Source: Basidiobolus meristosporus CBS 931.73
Taxonomy: Eukaryota; Basidiobolomycota; Basidiobolomycetes; Basidiobolales; Basidiobolaceae
DNA length: 52,763 nucleotides
NCBI GenBank assembly: GCA_002104905.1
Contig: MCFE01000615.1
Location: 1 to 52,763, forward strand
Direction: 5' to 3'
Each line of letters begins with the position of its first letter. Position 1 is the stretch's first letter. The translations under genes were made by a program, and so were the position numbers. Below the pieces are notes generated by a model. The model was not told the DNA's origin. It saw nothing but the letters and a program-made list of their open reading frames with translations, and ran no database searches. Positions 4,172 to 52,763 of the stretch are shown here, in pieces.

Positions 4172-4228
4172 CTTGAGGGAGGCTTTTTTGTTCTTCAGGG
4201 GGGAGGTTTGGATTATTGCTGCTACCAA

Positions 4229-4594: not shown

Positions 4595-4637
4595 CATATC
4601 CTACCAAAAAATGAAGGAAAGTCATCTGGCTTGCAAC

Positions 4638-5004
4638 TGTTACAAGTCTTGGTATAAGAGTTGTAGAGGAATAGGGAGTTTAGCTAGTACTGTATTCACT
4701 AAAACTTGAACTGATTTTATTGAGGTTCCAGCAGATCCTTATATACATTTTGCCAGATCAATTGCTGACTTATTGTATTTCCTAATGTAGGTTGTGGCTG
4801 ATGACTCATTTGATTGCATCATCATCACCCAATAAGATCCTACTTAATATATCTATTTCTGTCTGATAAGGATCTGCTGATTCATTTGCTGACTAATGCT
4901 ACTGATTTCATAGATAATACTGATATACTGATAACCTAAACATATACTAATTGATTTGACTAAAAACTGATCTAACTTAAACATTCAAGCGGCAGATCAT
5001 AACA
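4638..5004 (-). repeat. LTR of gypsy element 2 (3' LTR)
   Basis: Starts TGTTACAAGTC and ends GATCATAACA; 367 bp. It is nearly identical to 8450-8817, and the same sequence family recurs at 315, 4229, 28839 and 32952. Confidence 0.93.
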
Positions 5005-5018
5005 TTCTCCCCTACTAC
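5005..5018 (-). other. Polypurine tract of gypsy element 2
   Basis: On the minus strand the sequence GTAGTAGGGGAGAA ends exactly at the inner edge of the 3' LTR. This is the expected plus-strand DNA priming site of an LTR retrotransposon. Confidence 0.75.
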
Positions 5019-8000
5019 AGTTGAGAGGGTTCTCCTGAATCTCTTTTCTTGTGATACCAATATCTTGATGGTTCAGTATTTTCAGCAAGTCTTGCAAGCT
5101 TGAGTCTGTCCCTATGCACTAAGTCTTCCCAGATATTGCCTTGTTTGTCCACCAGTTGGTAAGTTGCAAAGGGACATTCTCTGACAATCTTGAATGGTCC
5201 TGTCTGTTGTGGCTCAAACTTCTTCCAAGTGTTGTTTCTTAGCAATACAAAGTTCCCAACTGTCAATGCTTCTGGTGCTATAGTCTTATCAAATCTCTGC
5301 TTCATCTTTTCTGCACTTTGAGATACTTTGGTCTATGCATCTTGACATCTTTGTTCCAGTTGCTGGTGTCTATTTGGCTGACTAAGTTCATCTTCTAAGG
5401 CATCTGTAAGCTTGTGTTGTGTGAGATCTCCTGGAATCCTTGGTTCACATCCATACACTAAGTAAAATGGTGATTGCTGGGTAGTGTTGTGTACTCAGAC
5501 TCTGCATGCAAAGAGTGCTTAGTCTATATACTCATCCCATATACTGACAGCTCAATTTGCATACTGGGTCAGCATTTTTCCAAATAATCCATTAAACCGC
5601 TCAGTGACTCCATTAGTTCTGGGGTGATATGCTAAGGTTTTCAAGTGTCTGATCTGCTGCATTTCCAGGTAAGCCTCTAATGTCTTTGCCATAAAGTTTG
5701 CTCCTCTATCAGATAAGATCCCCACAGGGCATCGAAACTACACCAGGATCTCATGGTAAATGAAACTTGCAACTTCTTGTTCACTGGCTATTGGCACAGC
5801 TTTAGCAACTGGCCATTTAGTGGCATGGTCAATTGCTACTAGGATCCAACGGTTGCATTTCCTGGTAGTTGGCAGTCTTCCAATAAAGTCAATTCCCCAT
5901 CTCTCAAATGGTCTTACAGGCTGTAAAGGGAAGAGTTTGGCAATTCTTTGTGGCTGGCCTTGATTGATTTGGCAGTTTGGGCATGTTTTTACTAGCTTCT
6001 CAATGTTTTGTTTCATTCTGGGCCACTATGCTCTGGCTTTCACAACGCTATAGGTTCCTTCAATCCCAAGATGTCCATATCCATTGTGTAGCTTATGTAT
6101 TAAATCCAGGCAAGCAGCATAAGGACAATAGGCAATAGGGCATCCATCAACAATTTGGTAGAGTGTTTCATCCTGTACAACAAATTTGCTGGCTTCATCA
6201 CGGATTATCTTCTTGGTATCTTCATCCACCTCATTAGGAATGGCTTGGTCCTCCTAGTACTTTGGTAATAGGCTAGGCCAATCTGATTCATGCACCAAGT
6301 TGAGTTGTGCAACTTGATCTAATCTTGATAAGGCACCGGCAACCATGTTGGTTTTTCCAGGGCAGTAGACAATCTCCAGGTCAAATTGCTGAATGTATTC
6401 ACTCCATCTTGTCATTCTTCTAGAGAGTACCTTCTGAGTAAATATATACTTGAGGGAGGCATGATCAGTCTTCACAGTGCATTTGACTCCTTCAATATAG
6501 CATCTCCATGTCTTCAAACAATGTATTATAGCAAGCATCTCCTTCTCATGGACTGGATAGTTTTGTTCTGCTGAGTTCAGTTTCTTGGATTCAAAGGCAA
6601 CAGGGTAGTCCTTTCCCTCATGTTCTTGGCTCAGCACTCCACCAATTGCATAATCTGAAGCATCTGTGCACAGAGTGAACTCTTTTCTGAAGTCTGGTAT
6701 TCTTAAGCTTGACAGCTTAGCAAGTTCATTCTTGAGCGTCTGGAAGGCAGTCTCACAAGCTATGTCCCACTTGTAGGTATTATCTTTCTTGAGGATATCA
6801 GTTAAAGGGGCTGCAATACTTGCAAATGACTTGGCAAAACTCTGATAATAGGAAACCATTCCAAGGAAGGATCTGAGTTCTGATATGCTATGGGGCTGCT
6901 TCTAATTCTTGATTACTTCCACCTTCTTGGGGTCTAAGGTTACTCCCGTGCTAGTCACTATGTGTCCCAGATATTCTACGTGTTCCTTGAAGAACTCACA
7001 CTTGGGTAGCTTGCCATAAAGCTTGTTCTCTCTTAGCTTCTTCAAGACCTTTTCAATGTGCACCAAGTGATCCTCTTCTGTCTTGCTGTATATTAGTATA
7101 TCATCTAGGTAGATTATGACAAACTTGTCTAAGTAATCCTGGAAGACAGTCTGCACCAGGGTCATGAAAGATGCAGGGGCATTGGTGAGACCAAAACTCA
7201 TGACTAAGTACTTGTAATGTCCATATCTGGTCCTAAATGCTGTCTTAGGAATATCTTCTGGTTTCACCTTAATTTGGTTGTATCCTGACATGAGGTCAAT
7301 CTCACTGAAAATAGTGGCTCCATTAAGTTGGTCCAAAAGCTCATCAATCCATGGTATGGGGTACTTATTCTTGACGGTAACTGAGTTCAGGGCTCTGTAG
7401 TCAATGCACATCCTAAGTGTTCCATCCTTCTTTTTCACAAAAAGCACTGGTGCTCCCCAGGGTGACTTGCTGGGCCTGATGTATCCTTGCTGCAATAGCT
7501 GATCAATTTGTCACTTCATTTACTCCAATTCCAATGGACTCATTCTGTAAGGTGCCTTGCTCACTGGAGGGTTATCTCCTGTGTCAATGGCATGATCCAC
7601 GTCTCTGACTGGTGGTAGGCTTACAAGCTCATCTGGAAACACGTCTGAATATTTCTTCAAGAGAGTCTGGACCTGCTGGGGTGCTGGGGTAGAGGAATTC
7701 TCCTGTAATACCGCCATGAGAAACATCTTGGTACCTTTTCTAAGTGCTCTACAGAACTGGGTCTTGCTAAGTTCACTTGTCTCACACACACTGGAATTGA
7801 CCAAGTTGAAATCCAGCCTGACAGGTAATAGCTCACAGGTCTTGTTGTCTTTTTGGATCTGAGTAGCATGGGTTCTCCAGTTGATTGATAGATTACGACA
7901 AAATAGCCAGGTTTCTCCAAGTACAAGGTCAAACTTGCAGTTCCCAAATATATAAGCCTGTAGGTCTTCTTCATAGTCATTGATCGTCATTCTTACTGGC

Positions 8001-8391
8001 TGGGTAATACGGTTGATTATGTGGGAGTTCCCATCAGCTGTGGAGACTGAAGTTGATTTGGTAGGTTCCAAGTTGATTCCAGCTTTCGAAGCAAATTGCT
8101 CTGACATGTACTCATGCAATGCTCCTGAGTCAATCATGATCTTGGCAGGTACTCCATTGATTATTCCATTCAAGTACAATAACTTCCCTGAGTTTGAAGT
8201 CATTTGGGACAAGTACTCTTCTGTCATATGGAATGTGAGTTCCAAGTCTTCTTCAAGCTCATCTTCCACATATCAGTGTTCATGTGTCTCAATATGGTTG
8301 AAGGTTCTTGTTGGCTGAGGATCTGGAGTAACTGTTGCTGTTGGGCCAGGATTTGCTGCATGGCATTCTTCCATTCTTGATTGTCTGACAT
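5015..8391 (-). pseudogene. Gag-Pol pseudogene of gypsy element 2
   Basis: The gag start at 8391 encodes MSDNQEWKNAMQQ and a glutamine-rich stretch. It then jumps out of frame to the linker after the missing zinc knuckle, so most of gag including the knuckle is deleted. Protease (about 8269-7850) has DSGALHEYM and LVLGETW. Reverse transcriptase (7495-6902) has [20 protein letters not shown] and an intact YLDD box. RNase H (6859-6254) has CTDASDYAIGGVL. Integrase follows, with the HHCC finger (LIHKLHNGYGH, then CPNC) and DFIGRLP, and ends with a C-terminal WKKFEPQ..GPFKI segment to 5015. Stops occur between protease and RT (two), RT and RNase H, RNase H and integrase, and within the integrase (a Trp codon changed to a stop). 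Confidence 0.9.
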
Positions 8392-10572: not shown

Positions 10573-13500
10573 CCCTATGCAAAATTATCAAAATGATCCT
10601 GTCAAAAGGCTGTCACAAAGCTAAAGTCCCATGACTAAGAGGCACTGATCCAATCAGGACACTGTCCAGAGACTGTTGAAAATAATAGCACCCCAGATTT
10701 CACAAAAAACTTGTTCAAAACTTCTCATCACATCAATGTAAAAGTGGCTTTTGCTTGGTTCCCTGACAATCTGCTCACTTTCGGATCCCAGATACTCATA
10801 AATGCTTATATACAGGTGTATGTGGCGCCACAACTTTATTGATAATGCATACTATGGCAAGTCATCATTGAATCTTACATATGTGTAGGTGCTATATCTC
10901 AAATGCATGACTGTCTTAAGCTCACATGTGTATTGACCAAAAAAAGATATAATGGCATCACATTGTTGAAGGTCAAACAGTTTGACCCATGGACAAGACT
11001 ACTTTGATTCAATGCTGTAAGTAAAGAGAAAAAGACCATGTAGCTATTGTTGCAAGTCTCTCAGCCATGAAGCATGCAGACAGCATAGGAAGTATTACAA
11101 GGATCATTGCCAGTGTTTTGCCATCCCAGTCATATTTAACCATTCATTAGTCACTACTGTGGCAACATTATTTTGCCAGCCAGTTGATACTTCTATATTA
11201 GCACATAGTTGTCTTTGTCACCTTGCACAAACTGAGTCATGTGAGTTTGTGACACCTTTAGGCCCACCTCAGCCTTCAGTATATGGCATGGAGAGTGATA
11301 GCTCTGATAAAGAGGGCTTACTAATAGATTTTGATCCTATCTCTCCTAACAGCAATACCACATATGAGCCTGGTCAAATCCCTATATGCAAAGAGACATT
11401 ACCAATTGAAACAAATGCCAAGGATACTTTATGGAGCCAAGTGAGCCCAGTAGAGCATCTACTGGTAAATGATGTAATGTTGTGGCTAGAGAAGAGGTGT
11501 GTTCCTACTTATATCAGTAATGGGGGCTTTGAGGACTTATTACTACTTCTTGCCAAAATCATACCGGGATGCAACTTACCATGTACATGGTACAAGTGGA
11601 CAACTATCATGTGGATGGCAACATATGATCCAGAGACTGTACTGTTTCCAGCATGTGTTAACAGTTACATGGCATTCACATCTGAATATGCTACCATTGC
11701 AAACTGTCCAAATTGTTGGGAATTCACCACCATTGAGTGAAAACATTGTTCACACTCCAGATATATTCTGGTCATACCCTGTCTGAGAAAGCTGATGCAG
11801 TCCAACAAATATTGCAAAGCTATACAGTACCACACTCAATATCAATCAACTGCAAACATATCCAATTTATTTGATGGCAAACATTGCAAACAGCTAAGAA
11901 GCAAGGGCAACTTTGAAGGTATGCATGAGCATGCCTTTGCTTTAGCACATGATGGATTCTCAGTAAAGAAGTACTCTACCAGGAAATCCTGCTGGCCACT
12001 GATTCTCATTAATCTGAATCTGCTGCCCATCTTACAGTATCAGAGCAATAATATGATGGTAGTCTCACTGGTATCTGAGCCTAAATCACCATCCAACCTG
12101 GATAACTACTTGTATCCATTGCTGGATGAATTTCTATGCTTTCCAGCAGGATAACAGTGATTGGCTGTCATGTAAAAGCGCATATTATTTTCCTCATTGG
12201 AGATGCCCCAGCCATCAGTACAATAGCATGTTTTCCAGACTCAGTGGATAGTAATGCTGTTAAATGTGTGAGATCCAGGGGATTTTCTCCATAACTCACA
12301 CACATTATTATTACCCAAACACCAGCACTAAGAACATTATCTTTCCACAGAGAGAACGTAAAGAAGTCAGCATGCAATTGCAGCAAAGTTGGCAAGCTAT
12401 ATGCCATTGCGCAGAATATGGAATCAATTGGAAACTGCAGATACTTAAGATAGAGGGTACATGTTAGAACAAAGGCTTAAACTGGGAGCAATGCATTTGC
12501 TATTCAACAATATCTCTATACTGATGACCAAGTTGTACATGGGACATTTCAAGCTAAATGAGCCATTTGAGACACCTGAGAAATTTGAAAAAATTGGGAA
12601 GATATTACCAAGTATCTGTTACCTTAAGTACTTCTCACAAGCCCTAATTAATACTCATATGTATCTACAACAATACAAATGTAAAGACTGGATGAACTGG
12701 ATACGTATTTATTCAAGTGGCATTCTGAAGCCATTCCTACCACAAGTACATTGGAAGCATTGGGAGTCATATGTGGACATTGTAGGAATATTTATCCAGA
12801 AACAGATGATCAATGTCTGCTTGACACATCTACAGCTGTTTTGTGAGGAGTTTGTGATGGGTTTGGAGTGGCTGTACTACAAACATAAAGCTGAACATGG
12901 AGATCTCTGCCACTACTGTTTCCATTCTCTACTCCATCTTGCATGGTGTGTGGATAATATTGGGCCTTGCTTCACCTTTTGTGAGTTTCCTATGGAGCGG
13001 ATATATGAGGAGATAGGAAGACAAGTCAAGTTGCAAGTACTACCCTATTCCAATATGTTCAAGAATATTGCCTTCAAGTCTTTCATGGATGTGACAAGTT
13101 GGCACATGGAGGACCACCAGGGGGAGTTGGAAAGTACTGAGGACAAATGTGCACACTATGGCATTACGCAGCTAAGCAGCCCCAATGCATGGGTATTCAG
13201 TTAAGTAATGCAAAGTTGTATTAGGTGCAACAAGCAACTGATTTTTATCAGGAAAACCCTACCAAGGTATGGCAGATATCTCACAGTCACATGCCAGCTT
13301 CTACACCATTCAATACAGAATTCACACAATTAAAAGCCAGAGCACAGCAATAAGCAAGAGGCCATAGTTCTTTTTGGCTCAAACCATATGTAGAATACCC
13401 AAGGTAGTAGTGGGTAAGCAAATAGAATTAAGGTGATACTACAGAAGAATATTTGAGTTGCACAAAGGGAGGTAGAAAAAGGAAATACCATTTGGTAAAT

Positions 13501-29548: not shown

Positions 29549-32500
29549 GGTTCAGTATTTTCAGCAAGTCTTGCAAGCTTGAGTCTGTGTCCCTATGCAC
29601 TAAGTCTTCCTGGATGTTGCCTTGTTTGTCCACTAGTTGGTAAGTTGCAAATAGACATTCTCTGATGATCTTGAATGGTCCTGTCCATTGTGGCTCAAAC
29701 TTCTTCCAAGTGTTGTTTCTTAGCAATACAAAGTTCCCAACTGTCAATGCTTCTGGTGCTATAGTTTTATCAAATCTCTGCTTCATCATTTCTGCACTTT
29801 GAGATACTTTTGTCTGTGCCTCTTGACATCTATATTCCAGTTGCTGGTGTCTACTTGGCTGACTGGGTTCATCTTCATCATCTAAGGTGTCTGTAAGCTT
29901 TGGTTACGTGAGATTTTCTGGAATCCTTGGTTCACATCCATACACTAAGTAAAGTGGCAACTGCTAGGTGGTGTTGTGTACTCTGACTCTGCATGCAAAG
30001 AGTGCTTGGTCTATATACTTGTCCCATACACTGACAACTCCATTTGCATACTTGGTCAGCATTTTTCCAAATAATCCATTAAACCATTCAGTACTCCATT
30101 AGTTCTGGGGTGATATGCTAAGGTTTTCAAGTGTTTGATCTGCTGCATTTCCAGGTAAGCTTCCAGTGTCTTTGCCATAAAGTTTGCACCTCTATTGGAT
30201 AGAGTCTCTACAGGGCATCCAAACTTCATAAAGATCTCATGGTAGATGAAACTTGCAACTTCCTGCTCACTGGCTATAGGTACAGCTTTAGCCACTGGCC
30301 ACTTAGTGGCATGGTCAATTGCTACTAGGATTCAACAGTTGCATTTCCTGGTGGTTGCCAGTCTTCCAATAAAGTCAATCCCCCATCTTTCAAATGGTCT
30401 TACAGGCTCCAAGGGAATGAGTTCAGCAATTCTCTGTGGTTGGCCTTGGTTGATTTGGCAATTTGGGCATGCTTTCACTAGCTTCTCAATGTCATGTTTC
30501 ATTCTGGGCCACCATGCTCTGACTTTCACAAGGCTATAGGTTCCTTCAATTCCAGGATGTCTATATCCATTGTGTAGCTTATGAATTAAAATCAGGTGTG
30601 AAACATAAGGGTAATAGGCAATAGGGCTTCCATCAACAATTTGGTAGAGTTTTTCATCCTGTACTACAAATTTGCTGGCTTCATCCCAGATTAACTTCTT
30701 GATATCTTGATCCACCTCATTAGGAATGGCTTGGTCCTCCAAGTACTTTGGTAATAGGCTAGGCCAATCAATTCATGCACCAAGTTGGGTTGTGCAACTT
30801 AATCTAATCTTGATAAGGCATCAGAAACCATGTTGTTTTTGCAGGGCAGTAGACAATCTCCAAGTCAAATTGCTGAATGTATTCACTCCATCTTGTCATT
30901 CTTCTAGAGAGTACCTTCTGAGTAAATATATACTTGATGGAGGCATGATCAGTCTCTACCATGCATTTGGCTCCTTCAATTAGCATCTCCATGTCTTCAA
31001 GTAGTGTATTACAGCAAGCATCTCCTTCTCATGCACTGGATAGTTTTTTTCTGCTGAGTTCAGTTTCTTGGATTCAAAGGCAACAGGGTAGTCCTTTCCC
31101 TCATGTTCTTGGCTCAACACTCCACCAATTGCATAATCTGAAGCATATGTGCACAGAGTAAACTCTCTTCTGAAGTCAAGTATTCTTAAACTTGACAGCT
31201 TTGCAAGTTCATTCTTGAGCATCTGGAAGGCAGTTTCACAAGCTATGTCCCACTTGTAGGTATTGTCTTTCTTGAGGATATCAGTTAAAGGGGCTGCAAT
31301 ACTTGCAAAGGACTTGACAAATCTCCAATAATAGGAAACCATTCCAAGGAATGATCTGAGCTCTGATATGTTATGGGGCTGCTTCAGATTTTTGATAACT
31401 TCACCTTCTTAGGGTCTAAGGTTACTCCTATACTAGTCACTGTATGTCCCAGATATTCAACATGTTCCTTGAAGAATTCACACTTAGGTAGCTTGCCATG
31501 AACCTTGTTCTCTCTTAGCTTCTTCAAGACCTTTTTCAATGTGCACCAAGTGATCCTCTTCTGTCTTGCTGTATATCAATATATCATCTAGGTGGATTAT
31601 GACAAACCTGTCTAAGTACTCCTGAAAGATAGTCTGCATCAGGGTCATGAATGTTGCAGGGTCATTGATGAGGCTAAAACTCATGACTAAGTACTTGTAA
31701 AGTCCATATCTGGTCCTGAAGGCTGTCTTAGGGATGTCTTCTGGCTTCACCCTAATCTGGTTGTATCCTGACATGAGGTCAATCTTGCTGAAAATAGTGG
31801 CTCCATTGAATTGGTCCAAGAGCTCATCAATCCAAGGAATGGGGTACTTATTCTGCACAGTACCTGAGTTGAGGGCTCTGTAGTCAATGCACATCCCAAG
31901 TGCTCCATCCTTCTTCTTCACAAAAAGTACTGGTGCTCCCCAAGGTGACTTACTGGGTCTGATATATCCTTGCTCCAGTAACTGATCTATTTGTCTCTTC
32001 ATCTCTTCCAACTCCAATGGACTCATTCTGTAAGGTGTCTTACTCACTGGAGAGCTATCTCCTGTTTCAATGGCATGATCCATGTCTCTGACTGGTGGTA
32101 AGCTTACAAGCTCTTCTGGAAATACATCTGAATACTCCTTCAAAAGAGTCTGGACCTTTTGGGGTACTGGGGTAGTGGAATCCTCCTGTAATACTGCCAT
32201 GAGGAACATCTGGGTGCCTTTTTGTAGTGCTCTACAGAACTGTGTCTTGCTAAGTTCACCTGTTTCACACACACTGGAATTGACCAAGTTAAAATCCAGT
32301 CTGGCAGGTAATAGCTCATAGATCTTGTTGCCTTTCTGGATCTGAGTAGTATGGGTTCTCCAGCTGATTGATGGATTACAACAAAATAGCCAGGTTTTCC
32401 CAAGTACAAGGTCAAACTTGCAGCTCCAAATATAAAGGCCTGTAGATCTTCTTCATAGTCATTGATCTTCATCCTAACTGGCTGAGTAATATGGTTGATT

Positions 32501-32893
32501 ATGAGAGAGTTCTCATCAGTTGTTGAGACTGAAGTTGATTTGGTGGGTTCTAAGTTGATTTCAGCTGTCAAAGCAAATTGCTCTAACATGTACTCATGCA
32601 ATGCTCCTGAGTCAATCATGATCATGGCAGGTGCTCCATTGATTACTCCATTCAAGTATAATAGCTTTCCTGAGTTTGAGGTCATCTGGGATAGGTATTC
32701 TTCTATAATATGGAAGGTGAGTTCTGAGTCTTCTTCAAGTTCATCCACCATGTTACTATGCTCCATGGCCTCAATATGGTTAAAGGTTCCTGCTGGCTGG
32801 TGTCCATTTCTTCTCTGAGGGCAGTACTTTGCAATATGTCCCTGCTGGTGGCAATTTTTGCATAGCATTCTTCCATTCTTGATTTTTGGACAT
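29549..32893 (-). pseudogene. Gag-Pol pseudogene of gypsy element 3
   Basis: The start at 32893 gives MSKNQEWKNAMQK, followed by a jump directly into the zinc knuckle in another frame (CKNCHQQGHIAKYCPQ, a CX2CX4HX4C knuckle that is still intact). Protease has DSGALHEYM (near 32600). Reverse transcriptase (about 32050-31490) has [13 protein letters not shown] and a HLDD box in place of YLDD. RNase H is at 31342-30980, and the integrase finger and core at 30742-30056 (CPNCQINQGQ, DFIGRLA). The integrase C-terminus ends near 29560. A frameshift separates RT from RNase H and several other lesions are present. Confidence 0.9.
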
Positions 32894-32951
32894 CTTGAGG
32901 GAGGCTTCTTCTTTCTTCAGGAGGGATGTTTCTGGTTATTGCTGCTACTAA

Positions 32952-39345: not shown

Positions 39346-41402
39346 ATATCACTGTCAAGCCTGGATAGCTACCTGTATCCATTGCTGGATATATTTGTAT
39401 GTTATCCAGCAGAACACTAGTATGTGACCATCAAGTTAAAGCTCATATTATGCTCTACATTTAGATACCCCAGCATCAGCTAAATAGCTGGCTTTTCTGG
39501 GCACAATTGGCAGTATTGCTGGCAAATGTGTGGGATCTAGGGAATTTTCCCCATAACTTATACACAATACTATTGTCTGAACACCAACACCAAGAACATC
39601 ATCTTCCCACAGAGAGAACATGCAGAAGTCTGCATGCAATTGCAGCAAAGTTGGCAAGCTATAAGCCATTGGCCAGAGTATGGAATAAACTGGAAACTGA
39701 ATATACTTAAGATAGAGGGTATCTGTAGGAGCAAAAGCTTTCTACTAGGAGCAATGCACTTGCTTTTAAACAATATCCCTATACTGATGGCTAAGTCATA
39801 CATGGGGCATTTCAAGCTAAATGAGCCCTTTGAGATACTAGAGAAATTTGAAAGAATTGGCAAGATATTGCAGAGTATCCACTACCATAAGTACTTCTCA
39901 CAGGGTCCAATCAATATTCATATGCATATGCAACTATACAAATGCAAAAACTGGATGAACTGGATGTGTACTTATTTTAGTGGCATTCTGAAGCCATTCC
40001 TACCAAGAGTACATTGGAAGCATTGGGAGTCATATGTGGATGTTTTAGGAATATTTATCCAGAAGTGGATCACCAATGCCAACTTGCACATCTACAGCTG
40101 CTGTTCAAGGAGTTTGTAACAGGACTTGAGCAGCTATACTACAAGCATAAAGCTGAGCATGTAGATCTCTGCTGCTACTGTATCCATTCACTACTCCATC
40201 TTGCTTGGTGTGTGGAGAGTATTGGTCCTTGCTTCATCTTGTGGGAGTTTCCTATGGAGCAGATGTGTGGGGAGAAAGGAAGACCAGTCAAGTTGCAGGT
40301 ACTACCATATCCCAATCTCATCAAGAATATTACTTTCAAGTCCATGATGGATGTGATGAGTTGGTACATGGAGAACAGTCAGGAAGAGTTGGAAAATACT
40401 GAGGACAGATGTGCACATGGAGACACCTATGCCTATGGAATCAAGAAGCTAAGCAGCCCCAATGCACTGGTAATCAGTGAAGTAATGCAAAGCTGGGTTG
40501 AGTGCAACAAGCAACTGATTTTTATTAGGAAAGCTCTACCATAGTATGCCAGGTTTCTCTTGGTGACAAGCCAACTTCTACACCATTCAATACAGAATTT
40601 GCACAAACAAGAGCCAGAGCATACCTATAAGGGGGACTAGAGTCCAGCAGGGAGAAGGAATATATTGGCTAAATACCAAAAAGTTCTTTGCAGATATTCA
40701 GGAGGTATTCATAGCAGAAGTGGTGGCAACCAAGCATGTGTTTGCAAGATGTATATGTTACCAGCAGTGCAAGGTATATGACAACTTTGCAATTACCACT
40801 CTAAAAAGCTGTAAAGTTGAGGTGATAAAAGTATGTCAGTTGTGGCAGGTGTGCATATTTGTAGAGGTTAGTAAGCAGGAGGCCATAGTTTTGTTTATTT
40901 GAACTATATGTGGAATGCCCAAGATAGTAGTGGGTAAGCTAATAAAGTATTCTAGAGTGAAATATATGAATTACACAAGGGGAGGTAGAAAAAGGAAATA
41001 CCATTTGGTAACTTGGTATGGTATCATTGTACAGAACTAGCTGTAAGCTGCAATACTGCCATGATAATGCCATCAAAGACTTGCAATGAGGCTGTCAAAA
41101 CACTGTCAAGTTTTTTGTCATATAAAGCAACTGCATGTACTGGCTGGTTAGATCCATTTAAAATAGTTGTAGAGTGCATTAAGACCACAACTATGCCACA
41201 CAATTATTGCTACAGCACCAATTAAACTTTGTCAAGTTTTTTAACTTTATTTGGCAGTAAAATTAGCCAAACACTGTTGAGATCCCATCATAAGATTGTT
41301 AAGAGAGTCACTAATTCCAAGCTGCTGGTATTATGACAGTCTCCAAGCTGGATCCTGACAGCTGATCTGGATTGGATCCAGCCATGGGACCAAATTATTT
41401 TT
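39346..41402 (+). mobile_element. CACTA/TNP2-type transposon, copy E (5' truncated)
   Basis: Begins in the middle of the transposase (equivalent to about 12090 of copy A) and reaches an intact right end, ATTATTTTTCATAGGG at about 41394-41409, identical in the last bases to copy A. A run of LTR-end sequence (CCAATATCTCCAAGACTC) follows directly, so it sits within or next to a copia-associated LTR. The left terminus is missing unless the inverted end at 39345 belongs to it. Confidence 0.7.
39500..40544 (+). pseudogene. TNP2-like transposase pseudogene (CACTA copy E)
   Basis: Two overlapping frames give a long, well-preserved C-terminal half. NNIPILMAKSYMGHFKLNEP, then KNWMNWMCTYFSGILKPFLP (frame 39634-40119), are followed by QLYYKHKAEHVDLC, HSLLHLAWCVESIGPC and WEFPMEQMCGEKG (frame 40014-40544). 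These match the DUF4218-like C-terminal part of TNP2 transposases, with the conserved HxLLHLA and GPxxxxxEFPMEx motifs. One frameshift near 40100 separates them. Best-preserved transposase segment besides copy A. Confidence 0.82.
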
Positions 41403-42605: not shown

Positions 42606-43585
42606 ATTCTAATAAAAATTCTTATATAGATCCCAACTAACACCTTGAGTGGGCTGTAGCAAAGCTCATAAGCCTCAATCCAAATGACTGAGTGAATAGA
42701 GTATTTATGATTGAGTGCAAAATTCACAACACAAAGTTTGTGGGTTCCCTGGAGGTGGTTGTATAAGTTTGATAGCATCAAGGGCTACCAGTTTAAAGAG
42801 TTAAGTGTTAGTTTATGAGCTGGCTCTAATGACCACAGTTCATATTCCATATTTCACCCTAGCATAGAATCTGGTTTATTGCCACCAAGAGTAAATGTTA
42901 TGTATTCCACCAAGTAATTGGAATAGCCACCTTTGACTCAATGGCCTAAACACCGGCCAGCTCCAGGTCCTGCTTGCATTATATGGCACGAATGCTAATA
43001 CAAAACAAGATAGATCAATATTTCATACAGAGCTGTAAGACAAGTTGCCCACCGTAGCAATTTCCAAGCAATTCGAATTACTTAACAACCGTGCAGAGGT
43101 ACGTTCTATGGGACGAACTCATATGATGCTAATGTATTATGAAAACCACCATTCCAGAAGAGTATTCATCAGGGATATTAGTACACAGGGGTGCTGTTTT
43201 TTGGGATTTTGTGTCTATTCCAATCGATGCCATTTGAGCCAAGCGCTTGGGCCTTTTCGCGCATTCAAGTTGGTAACCTCAGTACCATAGCCTGTGCGAT
43301 TGATAATAGCAAGTGACTTCTAGTGTAGGCAATCCTGGTTTAGCCATTTAATGATATCATAAATTTATATAAATATGGACAGTATAGCCGATATATGTAA
43401 GTTAGATGAGATTCCTTGGAAGCCAATAGCATGGTTGAGCGCTAATTTAAATTCACATGTTAAATCAACATTACCAGAGTTTCCATCTCTTCAAGGGACC
43501 ACTCCCTTTTGGTTGTCTATTATCAACACAACACACCACACCACACCGCAGCCCAACGATCGTCTCCTCCCAGAACACCCACCAA
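42606..43585. other. Transition between transposon DNA and gene-rich DNA
   Basis: No gene recognised. CpG becomes frequent from about 42950, marking the edge of the repeat compartment. A TATA-like TTTATATAAAT lies at 43364-43374 and a CACAACACACCACACC-type CA-rich run at about 43530-43550. Both are upstream of the next gene and could belong to its promoter and 5' leader. Confidence 0.5.
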
Positions 43586-44338
43586 ATGCCAGTTAGTGAG
43601 CCGCGAAAACTTACGGTGTGGTTTGTCCGCCACGGGGAGCGCACGGATTTCGTCGACCCGAACTGGAGATATACCACCACCACTCCATACGACCCCCCTT
43701 TAACCGAGCTAGGAGCCAAACAAGCGACCAAGACCGGCTACTACTTACGAGATCTTGCCCAGGAAAATTTCGACTCTTTCGTGAGGCCACATAGTAAAAC
43801 ACGGTACCTCCTCTACGCCTCACCTTTCCTGCGCTGCATTCAAACGGCGGAGGGGATCATACGTGGCATCGGGACCAGCCGTTACTCGGAAATCGTGGGC
43901 GGGATCCGACTGGAGCCTGCTCTATCGGAATGGATGAGCGAGGAGTATTTCACGGAGCAGATTCCGGACTCCCTCATCTCCTCCTGTAAGGAGGCTTGCC
44001 TCGTCAACCGGGTTCCGTTGGAACTCGCTTACAAACCTCAGCTCAATCACCTGCCGGAGTTCCCTGAAACCCTGGACCAGTTGGCAGCAAGGTTCCGGGA
44101 CTTTTTGGAGCGCACGGTGCAGCAGCTTGAACAAGATACCCCTGAAAACGAGCCCTTCCCCACGGTGATTCTAGTGACGCACGGAGCAGGAGTCAACTCC
44201 TTGTTGGAGGCCTGCTTCAAAGAACGCACTCTAGTGGAGGTAAACTATTGTAGTCTGTCCAGGGCGCACTTGAATCTGAAAAAGAAGGAGGAAGGCTGGC
44301 TCGTGGACAAGCAGGCCACGACCATCCATTTGAGATGA
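43586..44338 (+). CDS. Histidine phosphatase (phosphoglycerate mutase-like) family protein
   Basis: A 250-residue intronless protein of the histidine phosphatase superfamily, closest in layout to the UBASH3/ecdysteroid-phosphate phosphatase branch. The signature RHGER is at residues 15-19, with His16 as the expected phospho-acceptor. SPFLRC at 79-84 supplies the conserved second Arg, Glu115 is a candidate proton donor, and THG at 198-200 holds the second catalytic His. These enzymes remove phosphate through a phosphohistidine intermediate; the substrate cannot be told from sequence. No signal peptide or membrane segment is seen, so cytosol is likely. An upstream in-frame ATG at 43457 would add 43 residues. 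I prefer 43586 because the conserved fold starts right after it and the upstream part looks like a CA-rich leader. It is the first host gene right of the repeat block and converges with NFU1. Confidence 0.88.
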   Translation: MPVSEPRKLTVWFVRHGERTDFVDPNWRYTTTTPYDPPLTELGAKQATKTGYYLRDLAQENFDSFVRPHSKTRYLLYASPFLRCIQTAEGIIRGIGTSRYSEIVGGIRLEPALSEWMSEEYFTEQIPDSLISSCKEACLVNRVPLELAYKPQLNHLPEFPETLDQLAARFRDFLERTVQQLEQDTPENEPFPTVILVTHGAGVNSLLEACFKERTLVEVNYCSLSRAHLNLKKKEEGWLVDKQATTIHLR

Positions 44339-44553
44339 AGCTCGGCCGGGAGCGAACCTTTTTCTGTACTATTACCTCGACCACCCTTGATCCCACCCAC
44401 ATGTATGTTTTAATGCCAATATATAAAAGGTTTGCCAAACGAAGGTTTATTTGAAGGAAAGGCGGGATGCGGGAGATGAAGATGAATATACTACAGAAAA
44501 GGTGCCAACAGGCGACGAAACATCGCTGGCTTGGTTGATGCTACTTACACAAC

Positions 44554-45418
44554 TCAATTCTTCTTCTCCGCCAATTTCTTCTCAAGCTTCTCGAACTCTT
44601 GTTGGGCAATCTTCTCCTCTTCATCCAGCACCTGTTCGACTGCGGTCACCTCTGGGATGTAGTGCATGAGCATATTCTCGATTCCATTCTTGAGTGTGAT
44701 GACACTCGAATCGCACGTACGACAGGCTCCCTTGAGCTTCAACTTCACCACACCATCATCGAACCCGCGGTACTCGATATCGCCGCCGTCCTCCTGGATG
44801 GAGGGTCTTATACGGGTGTCCAACAGCTCCTTGATCATTTGAACCGCCTCCGAATCGTCCGGTAGGATAGTGGTATCTGAAAGGGCGTTTTGGTCATATA
44901 GGATCGGTTCCCCAGAATCCACGAAGTCGGTGATGGAGCCGTAGATGTCGGGCTTCATGAGCTGCCAAGGGGTGTCGGTATCTTTGGTAATGGTGATGAA
45001 ATCGGGGCCGAAGAACACACTTCTTACGCCCTCGATGTTGAGCAATTTCTTGGCCAGTCCGGAGTTCATGGCGTCCCGGAAATTCAAGAACTCCGCAGTC
45101 CCTTGCTCCCCCATCACGGGAACCCCAGGAATGAACTTGAGGGAATCTTGGTTGGGCGTTACTTCGGTTTGAATGAACAGGGTACGAGCTAGATTCGGTG
45201 TAGAGGTTGAGTTTCCTTGCACAGGTTGCGAGAAGTATTGTGGAAGATCTACCTTGGTTGAAGCTACCGAGCTGCTTGCTTCCCAGAATTCTGCTCTGGA
45301 AGGGAGTTACGTTGCTCTGGTTCGTCAGCGCCGTGAAGGCACGGCTGGTGGGTCTTAGGCTAGCCCTGTACGTCGAGACTGCCTTGAAATTGCTAAATAA
45401 ACCTCTAGCGAAAGACAT
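44554..45418 (-). CDS. NFU1: NFU1-like mitochondrial iron-sulfur cluster scaffold/carrier
   Basis: Two exons: 45418-45268 and 45215-44554 (270 aa with a 52-nt intron). Nfu1 passes [4Fe-4S] clusters to mitochondrial targets such as lipoate synthase and respiratory complexes. The N-terminal 60 residues are rich in Arg and Ser and lack acids, as in a mitochondrial presequence. The Nfu N-terminal domain (about 63-148) starts with LFIQTEVTPNQDSLKFIPG and includes VFFGPDFITITK. The NifU-type C-terminal domain (about 176-243) has IRPSIQEDGGDIEYRGF and the cluster-binding CRTC (Cys215, Cys218). A second donor 15 nt downstream (45252) would give a 37-nt intron and 275 aa in the same frame. The tail is charged (EKLEKKLAEKKN). 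Close match to the family over its whole length. Confidence 0.93.
45216..45267 (-). other. NFU1 intron (52 nt, or 37 nt with the alternative donor)
   Basis: The donor GTAGCT at 45267 or GTAGAT at 45252 pairs with the acceptor GCAAG at 45216. Both keep the frame. The longer form agrees with the other introns here (52-82 nt). Confidence 0.7.
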
Positions 45419-45712
45419 GATTGCTACTTCAAAAGAGTCGGTATGGAGGGGAAAAGTAACCAACGTGTATATCCAACACCTGTCCAGCCCGGCCAATTTT
45501 AAATGAAGGGACAAAAATTTCTTTAGGCATACATTACAAATATATCCCGAAGTAGGTCACACGAGCTCCGCAATATTCTCCCCCCCCCCCAATCCATTAC
45601 TTCAGGATCAGTGAAATCACCGTGTGTGAGATGTCAGACTTTAAACACGTGGATTTATTAATGCTACCTGCGAAAGTGCCATTCAGCGGGAATTGTACAT
45701 TTACATTCTATT
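45419..45712. other. Intergenic region between NFU1 and the RRM gene
   Basis: Presumed NFU1 promoter and RRM-gene 3' end. Contains a run of 11 C at 45580-45590. No gene seen. Confidence 0.6.
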
Positions 45713-47107
45713 CTACTCAAAGACAATCTTCTTTCCTTCGAAAGGAACCGGTGCTTCGGACTTTTTGGGTGGCGGTAAATGGCTGGTGCTCTTTTGTGGC
45801 TGTTCTCTCCTTCTTCTTCTACGTGGCTTGAGATCGTCCCCTGCATCGTTCTTTTGATAGCGCTGGAATCCACCCTCCTCGCCGTTTCTACGATAGCCTC
45901 TGTAGTGACCTTCGCCCCCTTCTTGGCTCTCACCCTCACCCTCACCTTCGCCATCCTCACCCTCACCATACCTTCTTGGTTTTTTATCATGCAGCCAGGG
46001 AGCACCACGCTTGGTGGCTTCGGCCGATCCATACTCTATTCTGAGCTTTCTGCCATCCAGCCACTGCTTGGATCTGTCGTTGATGGCTTTGGTAGCACTT
46101 TCGGCTTCTTCAAAATCGACATATGCGAATCTAACCACGAGCGAAAGTCAATACCTCTCCTGGAACATCACCGTAGAAAGCCGAGACTTACCCTTTGCAT
46201 TTGCCGGAATCCTCAAAGGTCGCCAGTCTTACCTTGATGATCTTGCCACAATCCTCGAAAAGAGACTTGATACCGTCTCTAGTGGTGTTGAATGAAAGAT
46301 TGCCAAGGAAAAGAGTGGGGCTAGGCTCGTGCTTTTGCTTTTGCTTGGATGCTTTCAGGGACGACTCGGTGGTTGGGAAGGTAGAAGGTCTACCAGTTTT
46401 GGCGAAATCTTGCGAGTTCTTGATAAGGACTTGCCGGCCGTCTAGTTCTTGCTCACTCAAGGTAATGGCAGCCTCGACCTCTTCAGCGCAGGTGAAATCC
46501 ACATAAGCAAAACTATCAGTTGATAAGGTTAGGATACCCAGCGCCAAACACTCTCGTATATAGTATATTGGTAATACCCTCTGTTGCCATTGTTCCCCAT
46601 GGGGAGGTGTACGCGAGTGATTTCTCCGCAAGTAGAGAAGAACTTATGGAGACTTCCTCTAGTGGTTTTGAAGGAGAGATTTCCAATCCAGACACCATGT
46701 TTAGATCTTTCCTTATCTTTTGCGGGCTTTTCCTCCGCCTTCTTCTTCTTCTTCTTTGGTGGTTGGGTATCAGGGTCGTCTTCAAGCTCACGTTCTGATT
46801 CAGACTCTGACTCCGACTCTGACTCCGATTCAGAGTCGGATTCGGAGTCAGCTTTCTCGGCTTCCGCACTTTCCTCCTTCTCCTCCTCTTTCTCCTCTTC
46901 TTCCTCGACATTCTTTTTTCTCTTCTTCGATTTGTCCTTCTTCTCCTTCTTTTCCTTCTTCTCTTTCTTCTCCTTTTTCTCCTTCTTCTCCTTCTTGGCC
47001 TTCTTCTTCTTTGGCGGTGCTACCGGGACATCCTCGTGCCACTTGGCGAAATCGTAAGTGTCATCTTCGACAGCCTCCGGCGTTTTGGTCTTTCCCTCGA
47101 TACTCAT
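45713..47107 (-). CDS. Nucleolin-like protein with two RRM domains (Nsr1/Gar2 type)
   Basis: Three exons: 47107-46578, 46512-46192 and 46130-45713, giving 422 aa. The introns are 65 and 61 nt, both GT-AG, the first with a CTAAC branch-like sequence. Residues 32-67 are almost pure Lys/Glu (KKEKKEKK repeats). Residues 68-110 are acidic and Ser/Glu-Asp rich, a likely casein-kinase-type target. RRM1 (about 137-215) has RNP2 VWIGNL and RNP1 RGFAYVDF; RRM2 (about 242-325) has LFLGNL and KGFAYVDF. The tail is Gly/Arg/Glu-rich with RRRRRR. This order (acidic-serine N-terminus, two RRMs, basic Gly/Arg tail) is that of yeast Nsr1 and fission yeast Gar2, nucleolar proteins of pre-rRNA processing. Both introns interrupt the RNP1 motif at the same Gly codon, suggesting that the RRMs arose by duplication. 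The tail has few RGG triplets. Confidence 0.85.
46131..46577 (-). other. Two introns of the RRM gene at equivalent positions
   Basis: Intron 1 is 46513-46577 and intron 2 is 46131-46191; exon 2 lies between. Each splits the Gly codon before FAYVDF in RNP1 after its second base. Confidence 0.85.
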
Positions 47108-47858
47108 GGTTTCCTAGGAACAACAAGTCACCGTGCGAGAGATGAATGCAACCATCCGGTGGTTTTTTTCTTTTTTTTCGTGGGTTTTCCTAATCCGAAC
47201 ATGCTGAGGAATCCGGGCCAAATTATTATGGGATAAGGTGTTACGGAACAAGCTCGTGACCGTGACCGTGACTGTAAACCTTCCATCCCCATCTCCTCCC
47301 CTAACCCTGGTCCTCATCGTCAGCCTGACCAACGACATAATACATACGCCAAAACTTGTTTCATCTCCCAAAATCCCAATGGCCTATTGTGTTCCAAAGA
47401 ATCCCTCATACCTCTGGCTCACCACCATATAGCATCATAATGCCAGGTCAAAAGAATGATGCAGCCATTGAGTAGAACAATCAACGCTGGCCAGAATCCA
47501 TTTACTGCTGGGATTGCATAGATTGTTCCTGGAGCGAAATCTCCATTTTAAGAATTGCAAACGGTACCGTTTGATCTCTCATTTGTAATTCGCTTCCAAA
47601 TATATATCGTGCTTAATTATCGCCAGTGATCTTAATGAACTAAATGTACTACTGTAACTTAGTTTCTAATCTGTCTCTCTGCCTTTGTGTCACCTTTTGA
47701 GCCCTGCCCTTATTTATAAGCGTGGCCCGTTTAAGAAACCAAGCGCTGGTTTTCCTAGAATCCAGGTTGTCTGCCCGCTACTTCCCTGATACCTGCTTCC
47801 CCACTCTCCCCATCGACTGTCATTCCACATAGAAGCGTTGAACAGCCTTGAACTGTGT
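47108..47858. promoter_or_regulatory. Divergent promoter region between the RRM gene and GRR1
   Basis: About 750 bp separate two genes transcribed away from each other. Contains a T-run near 47163-47178, a GTGACC tandem triple near 47254-47270 and a TATTTATAAG motif near 47710 that could be a TATA element for GRR1. No further gene seen. Assignment rests on position. Confidence 0.5.
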
Positions 47859-49438
47859 ATGATGACCCTAGTTTCGCCACCGTGTCCGGCACTTGTTATT
47901 CAGGACCTGCCGAACGAGATATTGGTCCATATTTTCCAACTGTTCCGTTCGCGTAACACTCACCTTTCCTGTCTTCTGGTGTGTAGGAGATGGCACGATT
48001 TGTGTGTGGAACACGTTTGGCACAGACTATCCTTCTCCTCTCTAACCGGCTTCCTCCAGATGTCGGAGGTGCTCCGACCCCCGTATTCCAACTACGTGCG
48101 TCGGATCAACCTGTCCCTTCTTGGCGGGGAGCTTGCAGGTGAGGAGGCCATTGCCAAGCTGTCTTTATGCAACCGGGTGGAGAAAGTGTCTTTCGGGGGG
48201 TGCAAAAGTATCCCCAGTCCCCTGGTCACCCAACTCGTACAGCAGTGGCCCAATTTGCTGAGCATCGATCTGAGCGAGCTGGTGCTCGACAATCAGTGTC
48301 TTTTGGCGCTGTCGGCGTGTTGTCGACAACTGCAATCTCTGAACATCAGTGGGTCCCAGAATGTCGAGGACGAGGCGTTGCTTAGCTTTAGGGAGCACCT
48401 GGGTATTAAAAGGGTACGTTCTCACCAGTTCGCAGTTCCACGCCTAACCCCAATATTATTCAATGGAGCATTAATGGATCTCTATGTTGTTAGCTGAAAT
48501 GTGCTGGTTGCTTGCGACTGGGCGACGCTTCCGTGCAAATGATTTCCTCTTTTAGGGGTCTGACTGAGCTGGATCTGGCTCAGTGTGGAGAGGTGACGGA
48601 TGCCTCCGTCAGCCAGATACTGGAGCATTGCATAACGCTTCGTGAGCTGAGGTTGGCTGCCTGCGTGCGGATTACCGATCTTTCTTTCGCAAGGATCCAC
48701 CCCGACTTCAACCAACTTCGGATCTTGGATCTGACCTCATGCTCCCAGATTACCGACGCCACCATCGGCAATCTAATCCAGCGATGCCCACGGTTACGCC
48801 ACCTCGTACTAGCGAAATGTGTCAACCTGACCGACGAGGCCATCTCCCACATCGCCAAGCTTGGAAAGCAACTCCACAACCTGGTCCTGGGACATTGTGC
48901 GCGGATCACTGACAAGGGGGTGGCCACCCTTACGCGCCACTGCACCAGGATACGTTACTTGGATCTTGCTTGCTGCAACCAGTTAACGGACGCCTCCATG
49001 TACGAGTTGGGAACGTTGCCGAAGCTTCGGAGAGTCGGTCTGGTCAAGTGTGCCAGCATCACTGACCGGGGGATCTATGGATTCATGTGTGGGATAGTGG
49101 CGTGTCAATCGTTGGAGCGACTGCATCTGTCGTACTGCGTTCAAATCACCGTACCGGGCATCCTGAGATTGCTGAACATCACGCCGCAGCTAACCCATAT
49201 CACCCTGACCGGGATCCCCGCCTTTCTACGGGCCGACCTACAGAAGTTCTCCCGCGCCCCGCCGAAGGACTTTTCCATCACCCAGCTGCCGATGTTCTGC
49301 GTGTTTAGTGGGGATGGGGTGCGGGCGATACGGGACTACATCGAGTCCTTGCCGATAGCGGCGCGAACCACTTACCACGGGGATGGACCACTCTCGATGA
49401 GACAGCTATGGGAGCTACTGAATTTGAGATTTGAGTAA
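47859..49438 (+). CDS. GRR1: F-box and leucine-rich repeat protein, GRR1 type
   Basis: Two exons, 47859-48413 and 48494-49438, encode 499 aa. The 80-nt intron is GT-AG with a CCTAACC branch-like sequence. The F-box is at about residues 13-56 (IQDLPNEILVHIFQLF, CRRWHDL). Cysteine-containing leucine-rich repeats (LxxLxLxxCxxITDxxI) run from about 100 to 440. The C-terminus has RAPPKDF and MFCVFSGDGVRAIRDYI, which I recognise as the Grr1/Pof2-type tail, so I favour Grr1 over the shorter Amn1. Grr1 is a substrate receptor of SCF ubiquitin ligase: the F-box binds Skp1 and the repeats bind phosphorylated targets such as G1 cyclins and glucose-signalling factors in yeast. It is much shorter than yeast Grr1, lacking the long N-terminal extension. 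Start chosen at the first ATG of a Met-Met pair directly before the F-box. Confidence 0.88.
48414..48493 (+). other. GRR1 intron (80 nt)
   Basis: GTACGT donor and TTAG acceptor. Joins HLGIKR to LKCAGC in phase 0, restoring the repeat pattern. Confidence 0.88.
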
Positions 49439-49699: not shown

Positions 49700-52600
49700 C
49701 TAATCAGAGTCATCCGACGCAGAGTCGGAATCAGAGCCATACATGGAGATGTCGGCATCAAGGGACTCGCGTCGCCATATATTGTTGATGATGGGACGTG
49801 GGTTCTCCAGGAAGATGGTTGTGGTGTTCTCCTTGGGGACCACGAACAGCTGCTTACCTCCGTTGACGTAGCACATGCCGACCTGCTCGAGTGAATCGGA
49901 GGTGATCTCCACCGATGGGTACGGAAGAAAGCCTGTCTTGAGTGGAACCAGCATAAAGTGGATCTCCATCGTTGAGTCCATCTGTGAAGCAGGTTGGTTG
50001 GGGTTTGTTGTTCGGTCAGTGGGATAGGCTACTTACGTCCAATGTGAAGTGGGCACGTTTCCTTCCGGAGAGCAGCCATTGCTCACCATCAATCCCGATG
50101 TCGTATTGCAACTCCACCGGTAAACGGTCTTGCCGGGGCTTCCAATAATCCGCCAGCTTGAGGACCATCTTGAACGGACACGCGCTCCCAATGTTGACAA
50201 CCCCCTCCTCGAGATGATGAAGCTGCACCTGGCATAAAAGCTGATCCACTAGGTCAGAAACGGCACTTATTGGTTAATAAATTGGGCCAACCTCATATAC
50301 TGGCGCACTCATGGGGATGTTCAACGTTTGCTGATACGGGCCTAGATCTGGCTCGATCTCCTCCATATCTATGGTTTGATACATCTACATGAAGTGAGGT
50401 TAGGGAATCCGAGTCACGATGTTGGCCAACCAGAGCGGCTTACTTCAAAGAATTGGCCCATGGTCTCCAACAACGTTTTGGCTGTGCTCTCTTCGTCATG
50501 CATCAGCAGCTTCTCTAGGGAGGTCGAGTCGAATTCGCCAAGGGTCACGGTGTTGGTCATCCCGTACGAAAATAGATCGACCTTCTGCCGGATATGCTGC
50601 TTCATGTATGGAATGAGGAAGGAGGCGTGCTGAACAAGCTGCTCTTTCTTGAGGAGATCGTGCAGCCGGCGAATGATGGTGGATTCGATCTCTAGGGTGG
50701 CAAAGTGATGGTTATTTGGAGAGCGATACAATGAAACTTTCCATGGAATCCCAAACCATCCTGAAGAGTGCAGTAGGCGAGCTCCAAATCAAAATGATGA
50801 CTAGTTTTTCTCGATTCATATTCTACGGGAAACATGAGTAAATAAATGAAACTTAATGATAGTCGTACAGGTTATCGAGAACAAACCTGCTCCTCTCTTG
50901 AGCTTGTATAACACAGTCATGTCTTGTCGTGGGAACAAAAGCTGGAAACACGGTGACCGTTAATCTCTTGCTAAATCAGCGCCTATCCAACTACATTACC
51001 GTGTTCAACTGGTTTAGCTTAGAAGCTTGGGCTAGCTCGAATTCCGCGGTGGTGTTGAGTGATGTGGTTTGAATACGGATAGGGGCCGTAGAACGACATT
51101 CCAAATGGACTTTGAAGAAGGCGCTACGACGGTTTAGCGAATGATGGCTATTAGGATAAATATGTACCGGCCTACCAGTTCTCTTGGAAATACACTTTGT
51201 GGGACCAGGTTAGTGGGATGGAAAGGTCCACTTCTTGCGTTGTGGAGTACGTGCGATTCTGACCCTTCTTGGTAGTGTATTCAACAACGATTCCAATCTG
51301 GAGTGTAGGGGCTTGGGTGAGTGCTGACTGGATATTCAACCTGAGAGGTGATGAGTCCCAACCTTGCCATGACTGGTACTAAATTCCTCGCAGGGTACCG
51401 TAAACCTAAGTAAAGATTGCTCGGGCAAAGATGGCAATTTGTAGTCTTCGCCCACACGGTCAAGTGTGACGGTAGACTCATCCTCCTGCGGGGTAGATTC
51501 AAGAAAAGCTAGGTTTGCCAAGATTAGTTTGGAACGTATGGTGCATGCGTGCGTGCTGTATGGCTTACTTTCTTGACGATAAAGTATCTTGCCTGTGGTG
51601 TTGTCGCAGGGTTTGAGGGTGAGGAGATCAGTTAGACTTTTGACTCGAATTACCCCATTTTCGATAGAGTCCTGGCGCGTCAATATTTGAACAAGGATCG
51701 TATCTTGACCCCCGATGTGAACTGGAACCCGAGTCAGTGAGAGCAGGGAGAGAGTAGGACTATGTCTGGATATTACCTATCTTGGGTAGAGACGCCTGGA
51801 TCTTGATGGTCGATGGATGCTCGTTGATCCGGAAGGTTCTCTTCTTGGTTTCCCGGAGTAAGTAATGAGTGAATACCAGCTTCCCAACATTCATTCGTAT
51901 GTTGTCAAGAACGTAATTGCCCGGTGCGGATGTCTAGAAGGAAATATACAATAGGTCAGGATGGTGGTCGTGGGAGAAACTGCCCGGCTCCAACATTACT
52001 TCACAGATCAACCGGCACATGTTGGACCCAGGCTTGAGTAGTTGGTTTTCACAGTAAAATTCGATCTCATTAGTGATATCCCCAGCGAGTTTCAGGCTAA
52101 GTTTGGAAGCAGTGAATTCCTAAACAGGTCGAAGATGTCAATCGTGCGGAGAATATAGCATACTAGGCGGATTACTGACTATGGGGAGTGAGTTGTTTAC
52201 AAGCATTTCGATTGCCAACTCCGTGGCAGAATCCTTCTTACTCAGGACAGTGACCTCAAACAATGGTTCAACGTTGCGCGAGATCTCTAAAGTTTGCTTG
52301 GGTTTAGTTCAGTTGATTTGACTAATGCGCGCGGGAAGAGGCAACCTTCTTCAAGCTCTGTGGACACTTTGATCAGCTCCTGCGAGTAGAGTAAGACTTG
52401 CTCCGCACTTAACAGGAATCTTGTTGTGGTGAGTAGAACAAGACACGACTCTGCATACGTAAGCATGGTTAAGGGCGTCAAGAAGTTTTGAGAGATGGAT
52501 TAGTAATCTGGAGATCGTCAAGGATATTGGCTGTATTGCTGCAGATGTTTCTGAGATTCAGCAAGTTTGGTCATCAAATGATTCTCAATCGTAAACCAGC

Positions 52601-52763
52601 CAGCTTCGATGTATTTCGCACAGATAGGCTTCAGTATCTGGCTGCTTCGGCATACTGCTGGTTGTGGCATAGTGCAAGGCCGAGTTAATACCACTGAGTC
52701 TCACTATGGATAGAAGGCAGCGATGCTTACAAATGCAGGATGCAATATCCCCCTGGAGTTGGT
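49700..52763 (-). CDS. TRS130: TRAPPC10/Trs130, TRAPP II complex subunit (3' part, cut by the window edge)
   Basis: Sixteen exons join in one frame to 712 codons plus stop: 52763-52731, 52657-52528, 52458-52346, 52286-52180, 52119-52000, 51933-51777, 51721-51569, 51508-51363, 51297-51176, 51123-51000, 50941-50887, 50822-50757, 50691-50444, 50384-50292, 50228-50037 and 49981-49700. Trs130/TRAPPC10 is a TRAPP II subunit, the complex that activates Ypt31/Rab11 at the trans-Golgi. Diagnostic stretches are YIEAGWF with LAESQKHL and a helical segment after it, then GNYVLDNIRMNVGKLVF, then beta-rich repeats with LLFPRQDM. The C-terminal EIHFMLVPLKTGFLPYPSVEI leads to an acidic Ser/Asp tail. Fourteen introns are GT-AG (52-73 nt) and one is AT-AC. 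The 5' part of the gene lies beyond 52763. The alternative large TRAPP subunit (TRAPPC9/Trs120) fits less well. Confidence 0.85.
52459..52527 (-). other. U12-type AT-AC intron in TRAPPC10 (69 nt)
   Basis: On the minus strand the intron starts ATATCCTTG, has a branch-site match GCCCTTAAC ending 9 nt before the 3' end, and stops at TTAC. The exons join as CA plus G to give QYSQYAESCLVLL, which keeps the frame and matches the TRAPPC10 family. No GT donor is available for this gap. AG acceptors just downstream (ATGCAG, CAGAG) break the frame. Confidence 0.85.

Follow-up and report, generated by a model that had tools for sequence, protein, structure and literature searches.

The window analysed here, a stretch of 52,763 nucleotides of Basidiobolus meristosporus CBS 931.73 (contig MCFE01000615.1, positions 1 to 52,763), carried at one end a gene for the TRAPP II subunit TRAPPC10. 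Only the 3' part of this gene was present because the gene ran into the end of the contig. One of its introns had AT and AC ends and the internal motifs of a U12-type intron (Table 1). F-box and LRR reading frames at 47790-49438 (+), probably belonging to one gene, were convergent with the 3' end of TRAPPC10 and about 260 bases away from it. The stretch 43451-47113 encoded a histidine phosphatase (His_Phos_1), an NFU scaffold (Nfu_N and NifU) and an RRM protein with a lysine/glutamate-rich N-terminus. Fragments at 1766-8272 and 31484-32916 (-) resembled, by reading, the pol of Ty3-type retroelements; the only one of these stretches confirmed by Pfam was a reverse transcriptase at 6905-7510 (RVT_1). 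Similar open stretches at 11021-13204 and 39541-40544 (+) looked by eye like a single repeated element, two pieces of which gave no Pfam match.

Table 1. Features of the TRAPPC10 locus, in positions of the window
Feature	Position	Strand	Remark
3' part of TRAPPC10 (TRAPP II subunit) gene	49700..52763	-	15 introns here; contig end cuts gene
Exon 5' of the AT-AC intron	52528..52667	-	one base short of the C421 copy at 52642, intact there
U12-type AT-AC intron	52459..52527	-	69 nt, phase 2, splits CA/G of residue 522 (full-length model)
5' splice site ATATCCTT	52520..52527	-	+4..+8 UCCUU matches U11 5' end AAAAAGGG
Branch-site motif CCCTTAAC	52468..52475	-	CCUU(A)AC complements GUAAGG of this genome's U12
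3' splice site AC	52459..52460	-	
Exon 3' of the AT-AC intron	52346..52458	-	YAESCLVLLTTTRFLLSAEQVLLYSQELIKVSTELEE

The product of the gene matched six Pfam families including TRAPPC10_1st (334.7 bits), NTS_TR130 and TRAPPC10 (59.5 bits), and its N- and C-terminal TRAPPC10 domains exceeded the curated cut-off. The identity given to the gene by the initial annotation was thus borne out by the TRAPPC10_1st and TRAPPC10 domains. In a PDB sequence search the product matched the yeast Trs130 chains 7u05_B (E 6e-21) and 7e2c_I (E 7e-21). Three distinct yeast Trs130 sequences were found in this way, at a distance too great to date the intron site in animals.

The first 20 bases of the AT-AC intron occurred twice in the assembly of this genome (89.0 Mb, 1311 contigs), namely on the window contig (C886) and on a contig that we call C421. 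The C421 copy was a whole gene, for which a model was made by hand. Of its 23 introns, 22 were GT-AG and one was AT-AC; the model had 1,180 codons plus a stop, was open throughout and contained an identical AT-AC intron. In the public annotation the window copy was K493DRAFT_341931 and the C421 copy K493DRAFT_301887. Our model lacked the residues LLCQ (12 bases, owing to a later GT-AG acceptor), which were present in K493DRAFT_341931 and in part (ELLC) in B. ranarum. The acceptor 12 bases further upstream was probably the likelier one, giving a full protein of 1,184 rather than 1,180 residues; this flaw left the AT-AC intron unaffected.

The two copies were 99.6% identical over 4,374 aligned columns, which extended to the end of the C421 stretch used. 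Six one-base gaps separated them, five of which fell within 52642-52737, near the contig end; these disturbed the TRAPPC10 frame in the window. One of the five lay in the exon before the AT-AC intron and another altered the AG of the preceding intron. Accordingly, the claim that the other 14 introns in the window were ordinary GT-AG introns held for 13 as they stood and failed in our model for the first, which read GT...TATG in the window and GT...CTAG in the C421 copy owing to a one-base difference. The gaps could be taken to mean that the window copy was decayed or mis-assembled and its intron unused. We considered this highly unlikely, since the gaps clustered at the contig end and the C421 copy was open over the whole model with the same intron.

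On a minus-strand reading, the coordinates, strand, length, donor, branch site and AC end in the initial annotation were all exact. The intron started with ATATCCTTGACG and ended with CCCTTAACCATGCTTAC. Its 5' splice site agreed with the U12-type donor [AG]TATCCTT. The branch sites of U12-type introns lie about 10-20 nt before the 3' end, and here GCCCTTAACC, close to the typical TTCCTTAAC, placed the likely branch A 10 nt before the last base of the intron. The CATGCTTAC end was one of the two found in U12-type introns (AC or AG). Across the junction, the upstream AGC CA and the downstream G TAT GCA GAG together encoded S-Q-Y-A-E. The borders could not slide because the bases flanking both junctions differed. 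The strict combination of donor, branch site and AC occurred once in the window and was contained in 2 of 200 first-order shuffles. A chance motif was ruled out by these shuffles together with the genome-wide controls described below.

The initial annotation held that no other borders would close the reading frame. For introns of 40-139 nt we found 32 pairs of borders that kept the frame open, namely the proposed pair and 31 other AT-AC or GC-AG pairs. No GT-AG pair was among them, and a GT-AG reading of the junction was therefore rejected. Among the 32 pairs, only the proposed one gave SQ/YAESC as in B. ranarum. Thus, the claim about the frame was worded too strongly and the conclusion drawn from it stood. 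One of the open alternatives kept the donor and moved the AC upstream by 9 nt, which would make a 60-nt intron ending at 52468 with the branch-like motif TCTTGAC before the AC, and would yield SHMLTYAESC. This form stayed in frame and had a U12-like branch motif, and as such it counts against our reading. We regarded it as extremely improbable because both B. ranarum and K493DRAFT_341931 had SQYAESC without the three extra residues, and because the 60-nt intron would end in CCCTTAAC, the better of the two branch motifs.

The public protein model of the window copy, K493DRAFT_341931, read HLQQYSQYAESCLV and joined exactly the two exons flanking the AT-AC intron. Therefore, the borders of this intron were already in the public annotation. 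The model of the C421 copy, K493DRAFT_301887, read ASLHLLLIHLSKLLDALNHAYQTLEISRN instead and left the AT-AC intron unused, which is a further point against our reading. Its residues LLIHLSKLLDALNHAY resulted from translating the final 48 intron bases, which the model took for exon. Between ASLH and EISRN this model had 20 residues compared to 85 in the spliced model; B. ranarum had the long form.

Patterns of the same kind were abundant in the genome. ATATCCTT..CCTTRAY..AC matched 117 times against 13 for the reversed pattern and GTATCCTT..CCTTRAY..AG 75 times against 10, where these figures were pattern counts and not a classification, some donors counting twice through other 3' ends and some hits being near-identical on two contigs. 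The excess over the controls was 104 for AT-AC and 65 for GT-AG, which suggests that AT-AC introns made up about 62% of the strict U12-type patterns in this genome. When the donor was left open after ATAT and the strict TCCTTAACT branch was kept, 74 matches were found against 55 in the control, so most of these open-donor matches were background. Nevertheless, 24 of the 74 had CCTT at +5..+8, where 0.3 were expected.

The initial annotation had concluded that this lineage keeps the minor spliceosome and had named its four snRNAs and its specific proteins as the genes to look for. We compared the four Rfam models with this genome and set the scores against their gathering scores. U11 (76.8 bits, gathering score 39) was found in two copies that were identical over the match, and U6atac (63.2 bits, gathering score 33) was matched over model positions 1-126 of 126. 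U12 (46.9 bits) and U4atac (43.4 bits) were found below their gathering scores of 53 each, which weighs against our reading. The U11 began with AAAAAGGGC and could pair with the donor of the intron; the U12 contained GAGUAAGGA and was predicted to pair with the branch motif. U4atac and U6atac were predicted to form a stem II of 13 continuous pairs plus two (-24.1 kcal/mol) and a stem I of seven pairs (-10.0 kcal/mol), and this predicted pairing supported both RNAs as partners.

Two minor-specific proteins, U11-25K and U11-48K, were searched out of the seven named in PMC4892727, and homologues of both were found. The U11-25K homologue matched PF18036 with 34.9 bits; its best PDB match was 1v2y_A (3300001G02Rik protein, E 0.0009) and its second the U11/U12 25K chain 8r7n_B (E 0.006). 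The U11-48K homologue matched PF05253 with 30 bits; at a single locus, two exons matched 8r7n_F (E 1.5e-5 and 4.2e-8). Since one control genome out of 14 also had a PF05253 match and GTSF1 was the best PDB match of the zinc-finger exon (E 3e-8), it was the second exon that carried the 48K assignment. Since the genome has all four minor snRNAs as well as two of the proteins specific to U11/U12, the conclusion that the lineage keeps the minor spliceosome was upheld. AT-AC ends are also known outside U12-type introns, according to PMC3584512, and this intron could in principle be removed by the major (U2) spliceosome like some other AT-AC introns. The presence of both internal motifs, with CCCTTAAC at 10 nt, and of all four minor snRNAs left hardly any room for such a route.

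The U6atac of this genome was unusual in the box that pairs with the donor. Its sole match, in a single copy by both the Rfam and the DNA search, was at C779:39963-40096 (-) and had GAUACGAGUCGAGAGAAAGUUAGCA in place of the UAUGAAAGGAGAGAAGGUUAGCA of the Rfam consensus. A canonical U6atac has an AAGGA box complementary to UCCUU, written in capitals in the Rfam consensus. The box found here was GUCGA, which speaks against our reading, and the donors still had UCCUU. Against this donor, GUCGA paired at +4 and +5, left +6 and +7 unpaired and formed a wobble at +8, compared to five pairs of five for the consensus box. The predicted duplex with AUAUCCUUUU weakened from -6.8 kcal/mol for the consensus to -2.5 kcal/mol for the Basidiobolus U6atac. 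With the TRAPPC10 donor AUAUCCUUGA the values were -5.0 against -5.5 kcal/mol by a different pairing, so the energy argument was weak for this particular intron. Donors adapted to the variant box were not found, since none of the 74 open-donor hits had CGAC at +5..+8. A second, canonical copy in the assembly was also rejected. When up to two mismatches to the canonical box were allowed, 26 hits were found compared to 12 for the reversed pattern; none of the 26 continued as U6atac, and all had at least five mismatches to the 19-base U6atac core versus none in C779:39963-40096. It is possible that the variant box was an assembly error or that the true U6atac copy was missing from the assembly.

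In the predicted fold, the box lay in a long helix with the 3' part of U6atac itself (z-score -1.76, with 12 of 200 shuffles folding as stably, which was not striking). The GUCGA box may extend this helix instead of pairing with the donor. U6atac-donor pairing is reportedly required in vivo, to judge from the title of a 1998 report by Incorvaia and Padgett. We put forward only tentatively, at somewhat less than even odds, that the U6atac with which Basidiobolus splices many canonical U12-type introns has lost Watson-Crick pairs to +6 and +7. If true, the U6atac-donor pairing would be dispensable or replaced by proteins, by the hand-over from U11 or by U6atac pairing in another register, and it would be U11 that keeps the donors of this lineage conserved. 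Moreover, if the mismatched U6atac is the expressed RNA, it would be a natural test of whether this pairing is essential. The passages of PMC10639083 consulted do not describe the box.

The site of the intron was then compared among fungal relatives, using 120 matches listed of 462 and fungal groups assigned from organism names; the large alignment excluded five of the 122 proteins, all of at least 1,350 residues. The proteins of B. ranarum and R. irregularis ran on across the AT-AC junction. Around model residue 522, nine of the 12 Glomeromycotina models examined lacked at least three of 12 residues, while at the other 18 Basidiobolus junctions tested none to three of the 12 were broken likewise (the first 19 of 23 junctions were tested, including residue 522). 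At residue 148, three of 12 were broken in the first alignment and one of 12 in the larger one, whereas the count at residue 522 was nine in both. Among the matches listed, the site was intact in 26 of 26 Mortierellomycota models and broken in two of 28 from Mucorales and Umbelopsis. The intact Mortierellomycota sites would fit loss of the intron or correct annotation equally well. Residue 739 was gapped in 24 of 26 Mortierellomycota and 28 of 28 Mucorales and Umbelopsis models among the same matches, which marked a lineage indel; a gap alone was therefore no proof.

Read-through was the more telling signal of a shared intron, as judged from these protein models. After the phase-2 codon, Dentiscutata read KQYPLIF, Ambispora gerdemannii KKYPFPV and Fennellomyces DQYPFSLLFS, and Y-P-[FL] is the translation of a ATATCCTTT donor, x/A TAT CCT TTN. 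Among the matches listed, these were the only three of 108 aligned rows with a residue there in which P came next. The protein models thus point to an AT-AC intron in both Glomeromycotina and Mucorales, at a codon and phase identical to those in Basidiobolus. Given the three Mucoromycota read-throughs and the nine of 12 Glomeromycotina breaks, the intron looks ancestral. If site and phase are shared, a U12 intron would have been present at the base of these fungal groups. In the public models, TRAPPC10 was broken here in one B. meristosporus copy of two as well as in the Glomeromycotina proteins just mentioned. Such breaks are expected from predictors that accept GT-AG introns only, and fungal gene finders can thus readily be tested on this site.

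Taken together, TRAPPC10 of B. meristosporus has a genuine and apparently conserved U12-type AT-AC intron. From the motifs, frame, homology and machinery genes observed, we infer splicing and, by way of protein models, common ancestry, and give a probability of roughly 0.95 to a functional intron of old origin. In the proposed mechanism, pairs would form between U11 and the donor UCCUU and between U12 and the branch site CCUUAAC. Next, U6atac would replace U11, and the branch A would attack the donor. The exons would then join as CA/G and restore SQ/YAESC. The ancestor shared by Basidiobolus (Zoopagomycota) and the Mucoromycota, including arbuscular mycorrhizal fungi, would already have had an intron at this codon and phase. 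Specialists may wish to pursue the U6atac box in particular, besides the mis-annotation and the site shared among fungi. The mis-annotation of the C421 copy, the shared fungal site and the U6atac box were not found in the literature searched; neither was TRAPPC10 together with minor introns, and TRAPPC10 was absent among the matches listed there.

The kind of intron is already known, and the species has been published as rich in minor introns. Larue and Roy (2023; PMC10639083) classed the introns of public annotations, used the four Rfam models applied here to look for snRNAs, and reported for B. meristosporus 249 minor introns, or 0.554% of its introns, the highest density in fungi. Their catalogue concerns the same species as the TRAPPC10 intron described here. 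TRAPPC10 had no occurrence in the main text of that paper; given the public model, the intron is likely to be in their list. Yeast Trs130, also a TRAPP II subunit, has TRAPPC10_1st, NTS_TR130 and the C-terminal TRAPPC10 domain in common with the Basidiobolus protein; the Basidiobolus gene differs from the Trs130 entry in being intron-rich, with its 23 introns in the hand-made model. The AT-AC share of human minor introns is about 26% (as quoted in PMC10639083), in contrast to our pattern-based figure of about 62% in B. meristosporus. U12-type introns together with minor snRNAs are reported, in PMC10639083 and PMC2846911, for Rhizophagus irregularis, Phycomyces and Rhizopus, and these fungi have both AT-AC and GT-AG minor introns, as Basidiobolus does.
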